From contig JADFYF010000009.1 in the NCBI GenBank assembly GCA_015233165.1, positions 1 through 44,626 of the forward strand: 44,626 nt of DNA, read 5' to 3'. The translations under genes and the position numbers were made by a program. Source of the DNA: Candidatus Omnitrophota bacterium. Lineage in GTDB: Bacteria > Omnitrophota > Gorgyraeia > Zapsychrales > Fredricksoniimonadaceae. Of this stretch, positions 365 to 24,174 are shown one piece after another (the stretch's first letter is position 1; every line of letters starts with the position of its first letter). The notes beneath the pieces are model-generated. The model ran no database searches and had not been told where the DNA came from. It saw only the letters and a program-made list of their open reading frames with translations.

Positions 365-3247
365 AAAAAACAAAAGTAGATCAGAGATGGGCTGAATATC
401 GATAACGATGGGCACTAAACCAGAGGCATTTCGAAGCATGGACAACTGGGCTGGATCTATCTTAAACTCAAAACCCTGACCACTGTTTTGAATTTGCAGG
501 GTTTTATCAGAAGTCAAATCAATACCTCCGTTTGTTATTTGCATCGCCTGATCCTTCAAGGAGGAATTCATAGCCGCATCAGTGATTGTTTTAAAAAGCA
601 TCCACCGATCTGGTGAAGGTGGCATACTGTTATAAACTCCAGAAAACATAAATTCCTTCTGAAAAGAATCTTTAACGTGTGAGTCCCATAAATTGTCTCC
701 ATTAAAAATAGAAAATATACTCCCCTCCTTCAATAATTGATCTAAATATTTCCAGGCCAGATTAACCTTATTCTTAAATATATTCAGATTTTCTTTGTCC
801 TGAGGAATCAAATATTGAATCACGTTATGCATTAACAACATATTGAACTGGGGGATTCCCTTATGCGTTGTTTCATCTAGAAAATTAAAATCATAAAAAC
901 TAATCATCTGATCTAATGTTGATGAGCGCTTATAATGTCCCTTTTCCTCAACAAAATATTCAGATAAATCCGCTTTAGGAAATTCTTTATCAACATGCGA
1001 CTCGATAATACTCGACGGATATATAATTTGATTATTCTTAACCTTCTTAAAAACATCCCCCTGTGGACTCATCACATGAATACGCACCTTAACGTACTTC
1101 TGAAGTCCCATCTTCTTTAACATTTGATCACAAAGAATCACCACGGAGATCGGCTCTTCCCCATAAGCGGCCCCTATAACACCCACATTAATAACCTGAG
1201 GAGGAATATCTTTTAACGGCTTCCCATTCACAAGACTCTTCACAATCAATGGAAACATTTTAGAAAAAAGAAATTCATAGGTGTACTCATACCTAAATAA
1301 TTGAGATGGCTCTTTAACATAGAAATTTCTTAAAAAACTATCATGACGAGCAGCTTCACGAAAACGAACATCTTGGGATAATAACTCCCAAACACCTTCT
1401 GTACTATCCTTTGCAAAAGACTTCTTTAATTCCTCCAATCTTGTCTCTATTTCCTGTTCAAATGAATATAAAACAATTTGAGATTGTTCATGCAAAAGAT
1501 TCTCAGGAAAGGTCTGTCCTTCACGAACAAAGTCCTCCCAAACCTGGACCTTATCGTCAAGAGAGAAGCTTTTCATCGCCCAGTCCTGCCTATCTGTCCC
1601 CAATAGCGGAGCCTCATTACTTCCATGCGCTCTTTGAATATTTATCCAATCAAAAATCAAATGACCTTTACCTTGATGCTTCTTCGTGTATATCTCATTG
1701 GCTAACTTTAAACACGCTGATAAAAGTTTGTCAGAATACTCCTGTCTGAATAAAAGATTAACTTCTCCACCCCAAATAATACTCAGGCGTTCTAATTCGG
1801 CATTTTCTATATTAATCTTTAATTGAATATCGATGGGTTTCCCTCCGACAGGAGTGACGTCGATATAATACTCTTCATAGGCTTTATCTTGATCTTGAAC
1901 CGTTCTTAGAAGAACCCCATGATCATCAATGGCTTGTTCTAAAGATCGACCTCCTTCGTTCGCCAATAATCGCAAGAAACGGCGATTTTCATCCTTGGTA
2001 TTCCAAAACGGCAAATCATCTAACATCGGATTATCTTCCCTTGTCGTCTGAGCAAAATCGACAGAAGCCTTCACTTGGACTAGCGAAACCGCATCTATCT
2101 TAGCCAGGACGGCAGAATTTTCGACTTCTTTAACAGAATAGATCAGCTGCGTTCCACCGGAGAAATATTTACGGGGAAAACTTTGACCTGAAACAGAATC
2201 CGGGGTTTCCTTAATATAGTTATAAACCCCCTTCTTAAAGGCCTGCAGGTATTGCTCGTAAATCTTCTGATTCTCCTTAGGATCCTTAATCCTTACGCCA
2301 TCCGTCTTATTCTGATCAGCATAGGCCGCCGACAAAATACTGTTCTTAATTTTCTTTTTATACCAAGAGGCTAAAAGAAAGGAATAGTAGACCTGACGCA
2401 GCTGAGCAAAGTTCTTGCCTTCGTTGACTTCGCGGGTGAGTTCGGGGATGACGATTTCGCGGATGATTTGGGAGCCTAGGATATGACTATTTATAGCCTT
2501 TTCCTGTAGCACTATGGTCTCACTATCTTTTTCGATGGGAATCCCCTGCGGGGATGTTCTGCCCTTGTTGTTCCTTTCAAGGGCAACATAATCCTCCTCC
2601 AACATCACCTTCAACCGCGCCTCCACCACATACGCCGCTCCCACCTTAGCATTTTCATAAATGACAGCCTTCTCGGGAACAATCCATACCTTATTAAACG
2701 TATTGACCGGAATATTTGTCGTCCCAAACTTCTTAGCCGCCTCCTCATAAACACGCTTCCAGAATTTCTTCCCCGTTTCCTCCTCGGGATAGATCAAAGA
2801 TGCTGTGATTTGCTTTAGAATATAATCCTGTGCCAGCAGGTCGCGGCCCATTTCGGTTTGGCCGAAGGATTCAGGGACAATTCTGTCTTTCTCGTAAGGT
2901 GACAGATTGACCCACATGTCTTTCTCGGGGGTGGTTAGGCTAGCTAGGAAATATTTGATTAATTTGGTAGATTCAGTTTTAAGGTAATCCTCCTTCGCCA
3001 AAATGCTTTCGCGTTTGGCTTCGGCGGACGTCCTGTCCCCTTGGTCCAGGACGAATTCAAACCGAAACGGATTATCCTTATGAACCTTAATCCCTTTAAG
3101 AATAGGAAGATTAAACTCAGGACTCAGATGCACCATCGTCCCTGGTTTAGGTAAAACAAGTTCCGCTTGCACCGTTGGTACAAGTCCAAAGCTATTGAAA
3201 AGGAAGGCTGTCAGGATCAATATATGGACAAATGGGGATTTCTTCAT
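302..3247 (-). CDS. Large exported protein with CheR-like methyltransferase domain (Omnitrophota-type)
   Basis: I start at the ATG giving MKKSPFVHILILTAFLFN, because this begins a clear Sec signal peptide ending near VQA-EL; the ORF-track start lies 12 codons upstream. The protein is 981 residues. Residues of about 30-400 hold a lineage-type module (GQTEMGRDLLAQDYILKQ, KIYEQYLQAFKKGVYNYIKE, PRKYFSGG) that I associate with many Omnitrophota proteins. Residues of about 640-850 resemble the SAM-binding domain of CheR methyltransferases: GAAYGEEPIS near 687 matches motif I and LMHNVIQYL near 805 matches the CRNVLIYF region. The last 60 residues carry a second recurring module (GGIDLT, LQIQNSGQGF, LVPIVIDIQP). 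A methyltransferase fold behind a signal peptide is unusual, and substrate and activity are unknown. The gene converges on the transposase fragment and is separated from the lipoprotein gene upstream. Confidence 0.75.
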   Translation of the reverse strand: MKKSPFVHILILTAFLFNSFGLVPTVQAELVLPKPGTMVHLSPEFNLPILKGIKVHKDNPFRFEFVLDQGDRTSAEAKRESILAKEDYLKTESTKLIKYFLASLTTPEKDMWVNLSPYEKDRIVPESFGQTEMGRDLLAQDYILKQITASLIYPEEETGKKFWKRVYEEAAKKFGTTNIPVNTFNKVWIVPEKAVIYENAKVGAAYVVEARLKVMLEEDYVALERNNKGRTSPQGIPIEKDSETIVLQEKAINSHILGSQIIREIVIPELTREVNEGKNFAQLRQVYYSFLLASWYKKKIKNSILSAAYADQNKTDGVRIKDPKENQKIYEQYLQAFKKGVYNYIKETPDSVSGQSFPRKYFSGGTQLIYSVKEVENSAVLAKIDAVSLVQVKASVDFAQTTREDNPMLDDLPFWNTKDENRRFLRLLANEGGRSLEQAIDDHGVLLRTVQDQDKAYEEYYIDVTPVGGKPIDIQLKINIENAELERLSIIWGGEVNLLFRQEYSDKLLSACLKLANEIYTKKHQGKGHLIFDWINIQRAHGSNEAPLLGTDRQDWAMKSFSLDDKVQVWEDFVREGQTFPENLLHEQSQIVLYSFEQEIETRLEELKKSFAKDSTEGVWELLSQDVRFREAARHDSFLRNFYVKEPSQLFRYEYTYEFLFSKMFPLIVKSLVNGKPLKDIPPQVINVGVIGAAYGEEPISVVILCDQMLKKMGLQKYVKVRIHVMSPQGDVFKKVKNNQIIYPSSIIESHVDKEFPKADLSEYFVEEKGHYKRSSTLDQMISFYDFNFLDETTHKGIPQFNMLLMHNVIQYLIPQDKENLNIFKNKVNLAWKYLDQLLKEGSIFSIFNGDNLWDSHVKDSFQKEFMFSGVYNSMPPSPDRWMLFKTITDAAMNSSLKDQAMQITNGGIDLTSDKTLQIQNSGQGFEFKIDPAQLSMLRNASGLVPIVIDIQPISDLLLFFSGNGQLIVTPFLPKINLPRE

Positions 3248-17850: not shown

Positions 17851-19182
17851 TCATCCCCCCCACCATGAATGAACCGTTTGAATAAGTAAATACACGTTGA
17901 ATCCGCCGATCATCACCGTGATCACCCAGGCCAATATCTTAAGCCAAAGGGGATTAACAAATGTCTGCATCTTAAGCTTATCGGAAGTAAACACGACCAG
18001 TGGAACAACCGCAAAACTTAACTGCAAAGATAACACCACCTGACTTAAGACTAAAAGACTTCCCACTCCTTTTTCGCCATACATCGCCGCTATGATCACG
18101 GCGGGGACAATGGCAATCAAACGCGTTAAGAGTCGACGTATCCACGGACGTAAACGAATATCCAAAAAACCTTCCATGACAATCTGTCCTGCCAAGGTCC
18201 CTGTTAATGTCGAATTCTGACCTGAAGCCAAAAGGGCCACAGCAAATAAGGTGCTTGCCACAGTCGCCCCTAACACGGGTGTCAAAAGCTTATACGCATC
18301 CCCAATATCCGCCACATTCTCATGCCTTCCTCCGTGAAAAGCGGCAGCGCTTAAGACTAAAATAGCCGCATTAATAAAAAAGGCGCACAGTAATGCTGCG
18401 GTTGAGTCGATCGTGGCAAAACGAATGGCCATTGCTTTTCCGGTATCATTACGTTCATAGGCACGGGTCTGCACGATACTGGAATGCAAATACAAATTAT
18501 GCGGCATCACCGTCGCCCCCAAAATACCAATCGCGATATAAAGCATCTGAGGATTCGTCACAATTTCAGGTTTGGGAATTAATCCATTAAACACCGCCGG
18601 CCACAATGGATGAGCAATGATCATTTCATAACCAAAGCATCCTCCTATCAAAACAATGAGACCTGCCACCAGGCATTCTAAAAGACGAAAGCCTTTATTC
18701 TGCAAGAATAAAAGAAGAATCACATCCAACGCCGTGATGAGAATACCGACGACTAAAGGAATAGCAAAAAGCAAATTCAACGCGATCGCAGAACCAATGA
18801 TCTCAGCTAAATCACAAGCCGCAATCGCAATCTCACACAGCACCCATAAAAATATCGCTACAGGTTTAGAATAATGATCTCGGCAGGCCTGAGCCAAATC
18901 ACGTCCGGTCGCAATCCCCAACTTCAGGGCCAAATGCTGAAGGATTATTGCTATAAAATTAGAAATCAAGACTACCGACAACAGCGTATAGCCAAATTGA
19001 GCGCCGCCAGCCAAATCCGTGGCCCAATTCCCCGGATCCATGTAACCAACCGCCACCAGAAGACCTGGCCCCACAAAGGCCATCATCTTGCGCCAGAATT
19101 TCGCCGTGACAGGAACGCTGATCGAGGCATTGACTTCCTGTAAACTGACAACCGTGACATCACGTTGCCATGGTTTTTTCAT
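17851..19182 (-). CDS. mntH: Nramp-family divalent metal transporter (MntH)
   Basis: Proton-coupled importer of Mn(II) and Fe(II) in the inner membrane. 443 residues with about 11 hydrophobic segments. The two metal-binding motifs of the family are intact: [12 protein letters not shown] in TM1 (Asp49, Asn52) and [13 protein letters not shown] in TM6. The gene start overlaps the stop of the CNNM/CorC-type gene (ATGTATGA) and its own stop abuts usp, so three genes are translationally linked. No manganese riboswitch or MntR site is apparent because there is no upstream gap. Confidence 0.95.
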
Positions 19183-21152: not shown

Positions 21153-21683
21153 CTAAGAAGCCATTTTCCATAAAAGCCAACCGCCTGATAGGAAGCACAA
21201 CACCATGGAAAGAACCCCCAAAAACCAGACTCCTGCGGCAAGACAATGATCAAAAGGCAAAAGCCCCATATGACCTAAAAGATAATTCCAGTCGTGAATT
21301 GTATCTCCGCCACCCCCTAAAGACACCAAAGGAAGCTGCATGGATCTGGCGTCGGCGATATAGTAGGAAACATTAAAAAAATTGGTGGACAGCCATCCGA
21401 AGCACAGCGTGATAGCAAAGAAATCTTTTTGCTGATAGAAATTCCACATTCCAAAAAGAGGAGCAGCCAATTGTGTAATGGTTCCCCCAGCAACAGCTAA
21501 CAACTGCCCGCACCATCCAAAAAGGATATGTCCTATCTCATGAATAGGAAGATTGAGCATCACAAAGACGTTATAGCTCCTCGGATCCTTTAGAAGCCCG
21601 ACGAAAATAACAGCAAATCCAATCAACAGAACTAAACGCCACCACCATTGCTTGCCAATACACCAAAACCTGGCCTCATCCAT
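21153..21683 (-). CDS. Membrane protein with HEIGH (HExxH) motif, possible membrane metalloprotease
   Basis: About 177 residues with five or six hydrophobic segments. The feature that matters is LPIHEIGHILFGW, an HExxH zinc site inside or next to a membrane segment, as in M50-type intramembrane proteases; a second metal ligand could come from the Asp/His-rich stretch GGGGDTIHDWNYLLGH. Too small for a classic S2P protease. Start is uncertain: the ATG has no ribosome site, while a strong GAGGAGGG sits 4-7 bases before two in-frame ATT codons about 20 bases upstream, which would give MIFFLFLMDEAR. It lies about 45 bases after the coiled-coil gene and probably shares its riboswitch. Confidence 0.62.
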   Translation of the reverse strand: MDEARFWCIGKQWWWRLVLLIGFAVIFVGLLKDPRSYNVFVMLNLPIHEIGHILFGWCGQLLAVAGGTITQLAAPLFGMWNFYQQKDFFAITLCFGWLSTNFFNVSYYIADARSMQLPLVSLGGGGDTIHDWNYLLGHMGLLPFDHCLAAGVWFLGVLSMVLCFLSGGWLLWKMAS

Positions 21684-21729
21684 TAAGAACAAAAAGAAAA
21701 TAATACCCTCCTCGATTCTTGGTTAATAT

Positions 21730-22107
21730 CTATTGTTGCTTAGGAGCCTGCCCTGATGCCATATGCCCCTGATCTGTCTTGCCTTGCCCTCCCCTATGTT
21801 CTGTTCCATGCTCACCTTGAAACCTTTCCTTCATGGATTCTCTGGCCTGCTCCATTTTCTGATGCAAGGCTTCCATCTTCTCTCTAATTTGCTTCATCTG
21901 CTCATGCAGCTGTTGCATCTCTTGACGATACCCTTCCATCTTCTGCTTAAATGCTGCTCGTTCCTGCTCCCTGGCCTGATGCCTGGCCTGTCTCTCCTGT
22001 CCTTGTCCCTGAGAATTGCCATCGCCTGAAGACTGTTGAGCTGGTGCCTGACTAGAAAAAACACAAACCAAACATACCCCCAAAAACAGCTTGATTAAGT
22101 TCTTCAT
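21730..22107 (-). CDS. Small exported coiled-coil protein under riboswitch control
   Basis: 125 residues. A Sec signal peptide (MKNLIKLFLGVCLVCVFSSQAPA) precedes a Gln/Gly-rich stretch, then a continuous charged helix with heptad spacing (FKQKMEGYRQEMQQLHEQMKQ ... EALHQKMEQARESMKERF) and a hydrophilic His/Gly/Gln-rich tail. There are no cysteines in the mature part and no lipobox. I do not recognise a family; a periplasmic or surface-located coiled-coil protein is the safe description. The 222-base leader holds a cyclic-di-GMP-I type riboswitch and a terminator, so expression should depend on the second messenger that governs motility and surface life. Ribosome site GGGGGATGGT. Confidence 0.75.
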   Translation of the reverse strand: MKNLIKLFLGVCLVCVFSSQAPAQQSSGDGNSQGQGQERQARHQAREQERAAFKQKMEGYRQEMQQLHEQMKQIREKMEALHQKMEQARESMKERFQGEHGTEHRGGQGKTDQGHMASGQAPKQQ

Positions 22108-22130: not shown

Positions 22131-22177
22131 TAAAACAAAGAAATCCGTCTCCTATATATCTTAAGGAAACGGATTTT
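22131..22177 (-). terminator. Intrinsic terminator acting as riboswitch expression platform
   Basis: On the minus strand AAATCCGTTTCC pairs with GGAGACGGATTT through 12 pairs (one G-U) around a 12-base loop and is followed by CTTTGTTTT. The G-U pair would be a C-A mismatch on the other strand, so it fits minus-strand RNA. It sits between the aptamer and the start of the coiled-coil gene. Confidence 0.82.
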
Positions 22178-22200
22178 AATATGTTATTCTTATCCTTCTG

Positions 22201-22276
22201 TTCGGCAACTGGCTATCCATTCTTGGACCCTCTAGTTTTGCGTCCCCACCTTACGGATGGGTTTGCCCTTTCTTGA
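22201..22276 (-). ncRNA. Cyclic-di-GMP-I (GEMM-I) riboswitch aptamer
   Basis: Minus-strand RNA reads AAAGGGCAAACC, a short hairpin capped by the GNRA loop GTAA (CCATCC with GGTGG, one bulged U), then the invariant GGGACGCAAA-like GGGGACGCAAAAC, a second arm (CTA...TCC AAGAAT GGA-TAG) and a closing CAGTTGCCG. This order of elements is that of the GEMM-I aptamer such as Vc2. The position equal to Vc2 G20 is G (AGGGC), which fits cyclic-di-GMP rather than the cGAMP-preferring variant. The A that stacks between the ligand bases (first A of CAAA) is present. TTGCC at the 3' end pairs with GGCAA at the 5' end. Followed by a terminator and then the coiled-coil gene. Confidence 0.88.
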
Positions 22277-22329
22277 TACGCTCATTTCTTCTTAAAGAAT
22301 ACCCTATGATTTTCTATAAAACAACCCGA

Positions 22330-24174
22330 TCAGGTAAAGTCGGTTAACTCTTTAGGAGCCAATGCTGCGCGTAACGCGTTAAGAACGGCCAGTACATCGA
22401 TGATTTCCTGGGCGATGGCTCCTTCAACAGGAGTTAGTTGTCCAACGGCTGCCAGCAACATCCCTAGCACAGACACAATCATCCCCCCCACAGCACTTTG
22501 CATGGCAATAAAGCGCATCCGCCGACTAATATGCATCAGCTCATCGACCTTGGTCAATGAACTCTCCATAATCACAGCCCCCGCAGCCTCCGCGGTGATG
22601 TCACTATTTTGGCCAAAGGCTATGCCGACGGTAGCAGCTGTTAAGGCTGGTGCATCATTGATGCCGTCGCCTAAATACATCGTAGGTCCCAGAGCTGTTT
22701 CTCGACGGACAATATTAATCTTCTCTTCAGGACTTTGGCCCGCGTAAATACTATTAATCCCCACCTTCTCTGCCAAGTACGCCACTTCACTCTCACGATC
22801 CCCTGAAACAATCATCGTTCGAGTGACCTTGTGTCGAGGATTAAGATGTTGAATAAACGATTTCCCCTCACGACGAGGTTCATCATGAAAACAAAAATGA
22901 GCCGCTAATTGATCATCCATGACCAACACGCATTCCAAACCACCCCCTTGGGGGATATCTTTAAACCATGCTTCCTTTCCCTTTTTAATCAATTTACCCC
23001 GACTGGTGATTAAAACCCCATGGCCATCAATCACCCCCTTTAATCCCTCTCCTGCCGCCTCACTAATCTGACCGGCCTTGATCAAACCTGTTTTTTCCTT
23101 CAGCGCAGCCTCAACAATAGAACGGGCTAAAGGATGTTTAGAATACTGTTCTAAACTCGCCGCATATTTCAATGCCTGGGATTTATCAAAACCATTAAAA
23201 CAATTCACCTTGGTGACCACCGGCCTGCCATAGGTTAACGTTCCTGTCTTATCTAAAATAATGGTGCGACAATGGTCAACCTGTTCGAGAATAGCCGGAT
23301 TTCTAATAATAATTCCTCGACGGGCGCATAAAGAAATGGAACCAATCACAGCCACGGGAATGGCAATCAACAACGGACAAGGGGTAGCAATCACTAACAC
23401 AGATAAGAATCTGATAGGGTCATGACTTAGGATCCACGCCCCCATAGCCAAAACTAAAGCGATAGGCGTATAGATAATCCCCAGCTGATCCCCCAGTCGC
23501 TGAATACTCGGACGCTTCTCTTCTGCCGCACGCATCACTTCCATAATCTTAGCGTAACGGGAATCCAACGCGCGTTTAGTGGCGCGAATAATGATCGAAG
23601 CATCCCCGTTGACAGCCCCCGACAAAACAACGGAACCTGGCCCCTTAGAAATAACAAAAGGTTCCCCTGTTAAATAAGATTCATCCATGACCCCATGTCC
23701 CTCAACAACCTCTCCATCCACTGGACAAATCTCATGAGGCAGGACCACCAACTCATCCCCAATGGCAATCTGGTCAATTGTAATATCCACCAAAGCGTTA
23801 CCACCTTTACGGTGGGCCTGATTAGGCATACGTTTAGCCAAGGCGGCTAAAACAGACGACGCTCGACGGACAGCAAAACTCTCTAAAGCTTCACCCCCGG
23901 AAAGCATGAGAACCACCAGGGTGCCGGCTAAATACTCTCCCAAACAGACAGAGGCAATAATAGAAATCCCTGCCAACACATCCGACCCAAATTGACGCCT
24001 AGAAAGCTTCTTTAACAAATCCCAAACCAAGGGAATCCCCCCAACCCCCAAGGCAATCCACAGAGGCCAAGAAGAAGAGTCTTGCGAAAGATCTGTCCCA
24101 AGACGCAAAAACAAATACGAGCCTATGGCAAAAATCGCTAAAAAAGCAATATAAAGTTCCTTGCCGTATTTCAT
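22330..24174 (-). CDS. P1B-type metal-transporting ATPase with a TPC motif
   Basis: Metal-exporting (or importing) P-type ATPase of the inner membrane, 614 residues. There is no N-terminal HMA or His-rich metal-binding domain; the protein goes straight into membrane helices. The actuator loop has SYLTGEP, the membrane metal site is ATPCPLLIA (Thr264-Pro-Cys266), the phosphorylation site is DKTGTLT (Asp308), the P1B marker SKHPLARS is present and the hinge is GDGINDAPALT. TPC in place of CPC or SPC marks an uncommon subgroup (I recall P1B-5/Nia-like members linked to Ni/Fe, which carry a hemerythrin tail that is absent here). Metal is therefore not assigned. The two-component genes immediately upstream are likely regulators. 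Ribosome site AAGGGAG. Confidence 0.9.
   Translation of the reverse strand: MKYGKELYIAFLAIFAIGSYLFLRLGTDLSQDSSSWPLWIALGVGGIPLVWDLLKKLSRRQFGSDVLAGISIIASVCLGEYLAGTLVVLMLSGGEALESFAVRRASSVLAALAKRMPNQAHRKGGNALVDITIDQIAIGDELVVLPHEICPVDGEVVEGHGVMDESYLTGEPFVISKGPGSVVLSGAVNGDASIIIRATKRALDSRYAKIMEVMRAAEEKRPSIQRLGDQLGIIYTPIALVLAMGAWILSHDPIRFLSVLVIATPCPLLIAIPVAVIGSISLCARRGIIIRNPAILEQVDHCRTIILDKTGTLTYGRPVVTKVNCFNGFDKSQALKYAASLEQYSKHPLARSIVEAALKEKTGLIKAGQISEAAGEGLKGVIDGHGVLITSRGKLIKKGKEAWFKDIPQGGGLECVLVMDDQLAAHFCFHDEPRREGKSFIQHLNPRHKVTRTMIVSGDRESEVAYLAEKVGINSIYAGQSPEEKINIVRRETALGPTMYLGDGINDAPALTAATVGIAFGQNSDITAEAAGAVIMESSLTKVDELMHISRRMRFIAMQSAVGGMIVSVLGMLLAAVGQLTPVEGAIAQEIIDVLAVLNALRAALAPKELTDFT

Follow-up and report, generated by a model that had tools for sequence, protein, structure and literature searches.

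A predicted class I c-di-GMP attenuator in an Omnitrophota genome and an order-wide set of GEMM-I aptamers ahead of exported and pilin-like proteins

In the window, which is the whole 44,626-nucleotide stretch analysed here (contig 187 of a 2.29-Mb MAG estimated to be 78% complete), a short leader on the minus strand precedes a gene for a predicted exported coiled-coil protein and, behind it, a gene for a membrane protein with a HEIGH motif. Does this leader carry a second-messenger riboswitch, in which direction would it act, and are the two genes its conserved target? Our preferred reading, to which we give a probability of about two-thirds, is that the leader contains a class I c-di-GMP riboswitch that acts as a transcription attenuator in the OFF direction.

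A full-length class I aptamer

When the whole window was scanned against Rfam, a single match reached the gathering threshold. The features that it defines are as follows.

22201-22277, minus strand: c-di-GMP-I (GEMM-I) aptamer, full length (cmscan, RF01051)
22267, minus strand: selectivity base G, RF01051 model position 11, equivalent to Vc2 G20 (equivalence via PMC9262584 and PMC11218506)

The RF01051 match, at 22277-22201, scores 60.8 bits (E=1.4e-9; gathering score 35) and covers positions 1-87 of the 87-position model. A preliminary description of this DNA had proposed a class I c-di-GMP aptamer here, and this significant, full-length match bears it out. The same description had named the blocks of the element, all of which are present and in the order given: along the minus strand, AAAGGGCAAACC is followed by a GUAA-capped hairpin, GGGGACGCAAAAC, the second arm and CAGUUGCCG. 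The conserved GC...GAC/GC core is formed by GGGCAAACC and GGGGACGCAAA, and the first hairpin has a GNRA cap, with GUAA placed in its loop by the covariance alignment. The ligand-contacting bases G20, A47 and C92 of Vc2 (equivalence taken from PMC11218506) correspond to G, A and C in the window aptamer, as placed by alignment and not by structure; the G that had been read at the Vc2 G20 position is indeed there, at 22267.

A second form of the class I aptamer, with a GYRA loop and without the tetraloop receptor, has been described (PMC11218506), and the window copy fits it. The two are alike in their core elements and in a full-length covariance-model match, the GUAA loop agrees with GYRA, and the second arm lacks the CUAAG...UAUG receptor. 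We find no structural difference between this form and the window copy; the downstream gene has not previously been reported as a target. Judged by its sequence, the window aptamer is a genuine, textbook class I c-di-GMP riboswitch, ordinary as a single copy.

An intrinsic terminator and a candidate antiterminator

As expected of a transcriptional riboswitch, an intrinsic terminator lies between the aptamer and the gene.

22141-22176, minus strand: intrinsic terminator hairpin, 13 pairs, 10-nt loop, -16.8 kcal/mol
22132-22140, minus strand: U-rich tail of the terminator, CUUUGUUUU
22215-22222, minus strand: candidate antiterminator strand GAAUGGAU, in the second arm of the aptamer, predicted as an 8-bp complement of 22174-22167

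The preliminary description had the terminator itself right, but its stem, with the arms AAAUCCGUUUCCU and AGGAGACGGAUUU, has 13 pairs and not 12. The hairpin begins 24 nt past the aptamer and has no nucleotides or strands in common with it, a layout of the Cd1 type in which the terminator is downstream of the aptamer and compatible with it. Our simple terminator scan has a loop limit of 8 nt and missed this hairpin because its loop is 10 nt long. The terminator is not a chance feature, since an intrinsic terminator precedes the gene in 88 of 134 aptamer leaders of the order (66%) and in 9 of 670 composition-shuffled leaders (1.3%); these loci (4 from the source genome and 130 from relatives, each with its first downstream gene called) were drawn from the best-scoring matches, so that proportions among them describe strong matches.

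Within the second arm, GAAUGGAU could pair with AUCCGUUU (22174-22167) in the 5′ arm of the terminator. In the window this complementarity is borderline: against the last 30 nt it is matched by 5% of shuffled arms (p about 0.05), and against the whole aptamer by 24%. When the polymerase is just past the 5′ arm, the aptamer and antiterminator folds differ by less than 2 kcal/mol; once the 3′ arm is transcribed, the terminator fold is favoured by about 12 kcal/mol, so that an antiterminator would act kinetically. Across the order, a contiguous-helix test shows that terminator 5′ arms are more complementary to the 3′ part of the aptamer than shuffled arms are (z about 6), and that arms from the same locus have a slight edge over arms exchanged among loci (z about 2.5). 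In the same test, the arms are also complementary to the 3′ side of the first hairpin. The contiguous-helix test took the place of a duplex-energy comparison between the aptamer and the 5′ arm of the terminator, which gave results with too much noise (mean z -0.4).

Two downstream genes

Two ORFs follow the terminator, as the preliminary description had anticipated: a 125-residue exported coiled-coil gene and then an HExxH membrane protein gene.

21730-22107, minus strand: 125-aa exported coiled-coil gene (ORF; signal-like N-terminus, Met/His/Gln-rich coiled coil)
21153-21692, minus strand: HEIGH membrane protein gene (ORF; TTG start at 21692 or ATG at 21683; 176-179 residues)

The coiled-coil ORF starts at 22107, behind a Shine-Dalgarno-like GGGGGG run at 22118-22113, and export is predicted from its signal-like N-terminus. 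Against Pfam, the protein gives only weak matches below the cut-offs, Metal_resist among them; a Metal_resist/Spy-like chaperone was rejected as an assignment at 21.6 bits for PF13801, below the curated cut-off of 29.2. The HEIGH ORF begins 37-46 nt after the coiled-coil stop codon and may be co-transcribed with the coiled-coil gene in the window. No Pfam or NCBIfam family matched its product, and the AlphaFold model (pLDDT 78.5, medium confidence) gave no PDB match with E below 1; membership of a known protease family was rejected on these grounds and the protein left unclassified. The top matches to it are in Candidatus Omnitrophota MAGs. The unclassified family is widespread, with 131 HEIGH-like loci over many phyla, and its HExGH and HDW motifs are invariant across 7 aligned orthologues.

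The upstream gene and possible read-through

Transcripts could reach the aptamer from a gene upstream of it.

22330-24174, minus strand: heavy-metal P-type ATPase gene (TIGR01525)

This gene ends 53 nt upstream of the aptamer. In a reading that we hold as tentative, ATPase-gene transcripts enter the aptamer and the riboswitch gates read-through in a longer operon; c-di-GMP would then determine if the transcript extends into the coiled-coil and HEIGH genes, in a way that fits either direction of switching. Between the ATPase end at 22330 and the aptamer the simple scan found no terminator, and the minus strand just upstream showed no convincing promoter. Also in favour, the ATPase is a heavy-metal transporter and the coiled-coil protein has its weak Metal_resist match. 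Against this, transcription could equally well begin at a weak or non-sigma-70 promoter located in the 53-nt gap or within the last part of the ATPase gene, and the shared orientation is uninformative because the plausible genes of the window all lie on the minus strand.

Downstream of the riboswitch genes lies an Nramp transporter gene (17851-19182, minus strand), so that the ATPase and Nramp genes flank them. At a locus with a relative of the coiled-coil protein (L046), the neighbours are sigma-factor-like and zinc-finger anti-sigma-like genes and a short exported protein. These neighbours hint at envelope or metal stress.

Direction of the switch

For the attenuator itself we favour the OFF direction, because terminator and aptamer occupy separate nucleotides and can form side by side, an arrangement known from Cd1. 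In this class I OFF switch of Clostridioides difficile the two structures are compatible with each other, and both compete with an antiterminator that takes one of its strands from the aptamer (PMC9262584); the class I switches of C. difficile are transcriptional OFF switches (PMC11477304). Like the window, Cd1 has an aptamer followed by a separate, compatible intrinsic terminator. Its antiterminator is built from an aptamer strand, which in the window is only a candidate arrangement, and it precedes a flagellar operon, whereas the window target is one small exported protein gene.

In an OFF switch of this kind, RNA polymerase would first make the aptamer. With c-di-GMP bound, the aptamer would keep its strands and the downstream terminator hairpin would form freely, halting transcription before the coiled-coil gene (and before the HEIGH gene, if it is co-transcribed). 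When c-di-GMP is absent, the second-arm strand 22222-22215 would pair transiently with the 5′ arm of the terminator and allow read-through, so that the coiled-coil protein would be produced at low c-di-GMP. High c-di-GMP would thus most likely lower expression.

The main rival to the OFF direction is an ON switch, in which the ligand-bound aptamer blocks termination, as in the cGAMP riboswitch of Geobacter pilM; we consider it unlikely in the window. Precedents exist, since OFF is not universal among class I switches (Bc1 is reported to turn reporters on; PMC11218506) and since the related cGAMP switch of pilM is ON, with a terminator that takes an aptamer strand directly (PMC9262584). The pilM aptamer belongs to the same clan, and Omnitrophota GEMM-I copies also precede pilin-like genes. 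The window copy departs from pilM in having G in place of A at the selectivity base and, above all for this question, in the position of its terminator: spaced from the aptamer and sharing no strand with it, the terminator would form without direct competition with the folded aptamer. Among the 88 terminator-bearing loci, the terminator is wholly downstream of the aptamer in 84. At L014, L016, L056 and L065 it starts inside the 3′ end of the aptamer, as an ON design needs, so that both directions may occur in the order.

The gene pair is not a conserved target

The preliminary description had proposed that the coiled-coil and HEIGH proteins form a second-messenger-controlled envelope pair. Comparison with relatives does not support this. 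HEIGH orthologues in seven relatives are 46-53% identical over most of the protein, with one short fragment in addition, and RF01051 was not found within the HEIGH loci of these 7 related genomes. Nor was an aptamer found near HEIGH in 20 contigs scanned from the search that yielded the 131 HEIGH-like loci; these contigs partly overlap the seven relatives, some being identical records. Relatives of the coiled-coil protein at L044, L045 and L046 (37-39% identity) have no aptamer upstream. At L045, a weak RF01051 match (32.8 bits) lies downstream of the coiled-coil relative and precedes the exported gene that comes next. When 81 genomes of the order were searched, one further, distant coiled-coil relative turned up, without an aptamer.

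A conserved aptamer/coiled-coil/HEIGH operon was therefore rejected, the arrangement being seen only in the source MAG. The preliminary description had itself named the lack of a conserved aptamer before orthologous genes as a ground for refutation, and such a lack is what the orthologues of this gene pair show; the riboswitch itself stands. Because the loci of relatives lack the aptamer, HEIGH can be no more than a local passenger, with the coiled-coil gene a target in the source genome only, and their specific regulation cannot be confirmed by comparison. The confinement to one genome would also suit an aptamer that has decayed and become inactive, left over after a gene rearrangement. We regard such decay as improbable in view of the high full-length covariance-model score, the conserved core bases, the intact terminator with its good tail and the well-placed ribosome site.

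A riboswitch set across the order

RF01051 is present in 50 of 55 relatives, with up to 14 copies in one genome, and absent from all 14 control genomes. The regulon that is general in the order is not the window gene pair: most of the aptamers lie ahead of genes for exported or pilin-like proteins. Of the 124 confidently called downstream genes, 104 (84%) encode an N-terminus that resembles a signal peptide or membrane anchor, compared with 42 of 110 other genes of the same loci (38%). Among 133 proteins downstream of aptamers, Pfam recognises an N_methyl pilin motif in 29 and a response-regulator domain in 8; several peptidases and proteins of the beta-helix, beta-propeller and FG-GAP types are less frequent. 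Terminators are present at 25 of 28 pilin-like targets versus 4 of 17 from a small exported family. With targets that are mostly exported or pilin-like, the regulated process, which the preliminary description had called unknown, can be narrowed.

The small exported family (about 75-90 aa, alignment A4) stands behind 20 of the 134 aptamers and is marked by a signal-like N-terminus, an [FY]x[LIV]SVTIP motif and a C-terminal SIVVP/L/K. Seven more members were found without recourse to the aptamer, of which two have a confident GEMM-I upstream (L275, L276) and two a weak one (L278, L280). GEMM-I with a terminator also precedes major-pilin-like genes (GFTLVEIMIVVAIIALLAAIAIPNLLRA...), for example at L079, L087, L095, L097, L108, L113, L125 and L136; these resemble the conductive-pilin type predicted in Omnitrophota.

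The source genome encodes c-di-GMP machinery, with 6 GGDEF and 10 PilZ domains, which agrees with the attenuator reading; it also has 18 N_methyl pilin motifs and 17 matches to the secretion/pilus ATPase family T2SSE (14 over the cut-off). Whether GEMM-I is a main c-di-GMP output in the order, with up to about 14 copies per genome attenuating type IV pilin-like genes, exported proteases and the exported family of about 80 residues, is in our view an even call. If it is, these tiny, possibly host-dependent cells have their repertoire of surface and pilus components set directly by c-di-GMP. In a phylum without a pure-culture isolate, such a regulon is readable from sequence alone and connects named surface genes with the second messenger.

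The order-wide pattern offers testable targets for the control of pili and exported proteins in Omnitrophota, where both have been linked to attachment and to predation or parasitism (PMC10066038). That main genomic survey of the phylum covers pili and not c-di-GMP (PMC10066038). A literature search, incomplete and no proof of absence, found no paper that joins Omnitrophota to either riboswitches or c-di-GMP, and none on cyclic di-GMP in Omnitrophica, and a large set of such switches in the order is apparently undescribed. What merits further study is the order-wide surface and pilin regulon. The window copy, which alone is an ordinary member of a known riboswitch class, adds one more target to it.

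Ligand choice

The Vc2 G20 position contributes to selectivity but is no absolute filter (PMC9262584), and G20A is the change that converts a GEMM-I aptamer to a cGAMP binder (PMC6274999). The G in the window fits c-di-GMP as the predicted ligand; the earlier argument that this base points to c-di-GMP holds as agreement and not as a strict test. Across the 134 aptamers the base is G in 119, A in 10 (L012, L021, L055, L106, L117, L121, L123, L126, L128 and the source genome's own L003) and C in 5 (L089, L100, L104, L111, L144). Aptamers with A or C may prefer cGAMP or another dinucleotide. That the window aptamer senses 3′,3′-cGAMP, or both dinucleotides, in place of c-di-GMP is very improbable: GEMM-I aptamers do include cGAMP sensors and A occurs even within the source genome, but the window base is the majority G, and a cGAMP riboswitch of the G20A type was rejected for this copy.

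Other copies in the source genome

Besides the window copy, RF01051 occurs three times in the source genome, for a total of four.

L002, gene 1608-1835: RF01051 copy before a small exported protein of about 75-85 aa
L003, contig C37, aptamer 1501-1583, minus strand: before an exported papain-like C1 protein (PF00112)
L004, contig C170, aptamer 1501-1591, plus strand: before an exported pro-kumamolisin protein (PF09286)

The L002 protein matches no Pfam or NCBIfam family. The copies before the two exported proteases recall the class I riboswitch of the secreted protease PPEP-1 in C. difficile, which likewise places an exported protein under c-di-GMP control, but the protease families are unrelated and no terminator was found at L003 or L004. 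At both of these loci, the sole in-frame ATG/GTG/TTG ahead of the signal-like segment lies inside the second arm of the aptamer, at CCTATGGTAGTCGA, reading MVVER, and an SD-like AGGAG or AAGGGG is also within the aptamer; the start codon of the exported proteases may lie within the aptamer itself. In the relative G030 (L292), a pro-kumamolisin homologue stands behind the same aptamer, but with an ordinary start further downstream.
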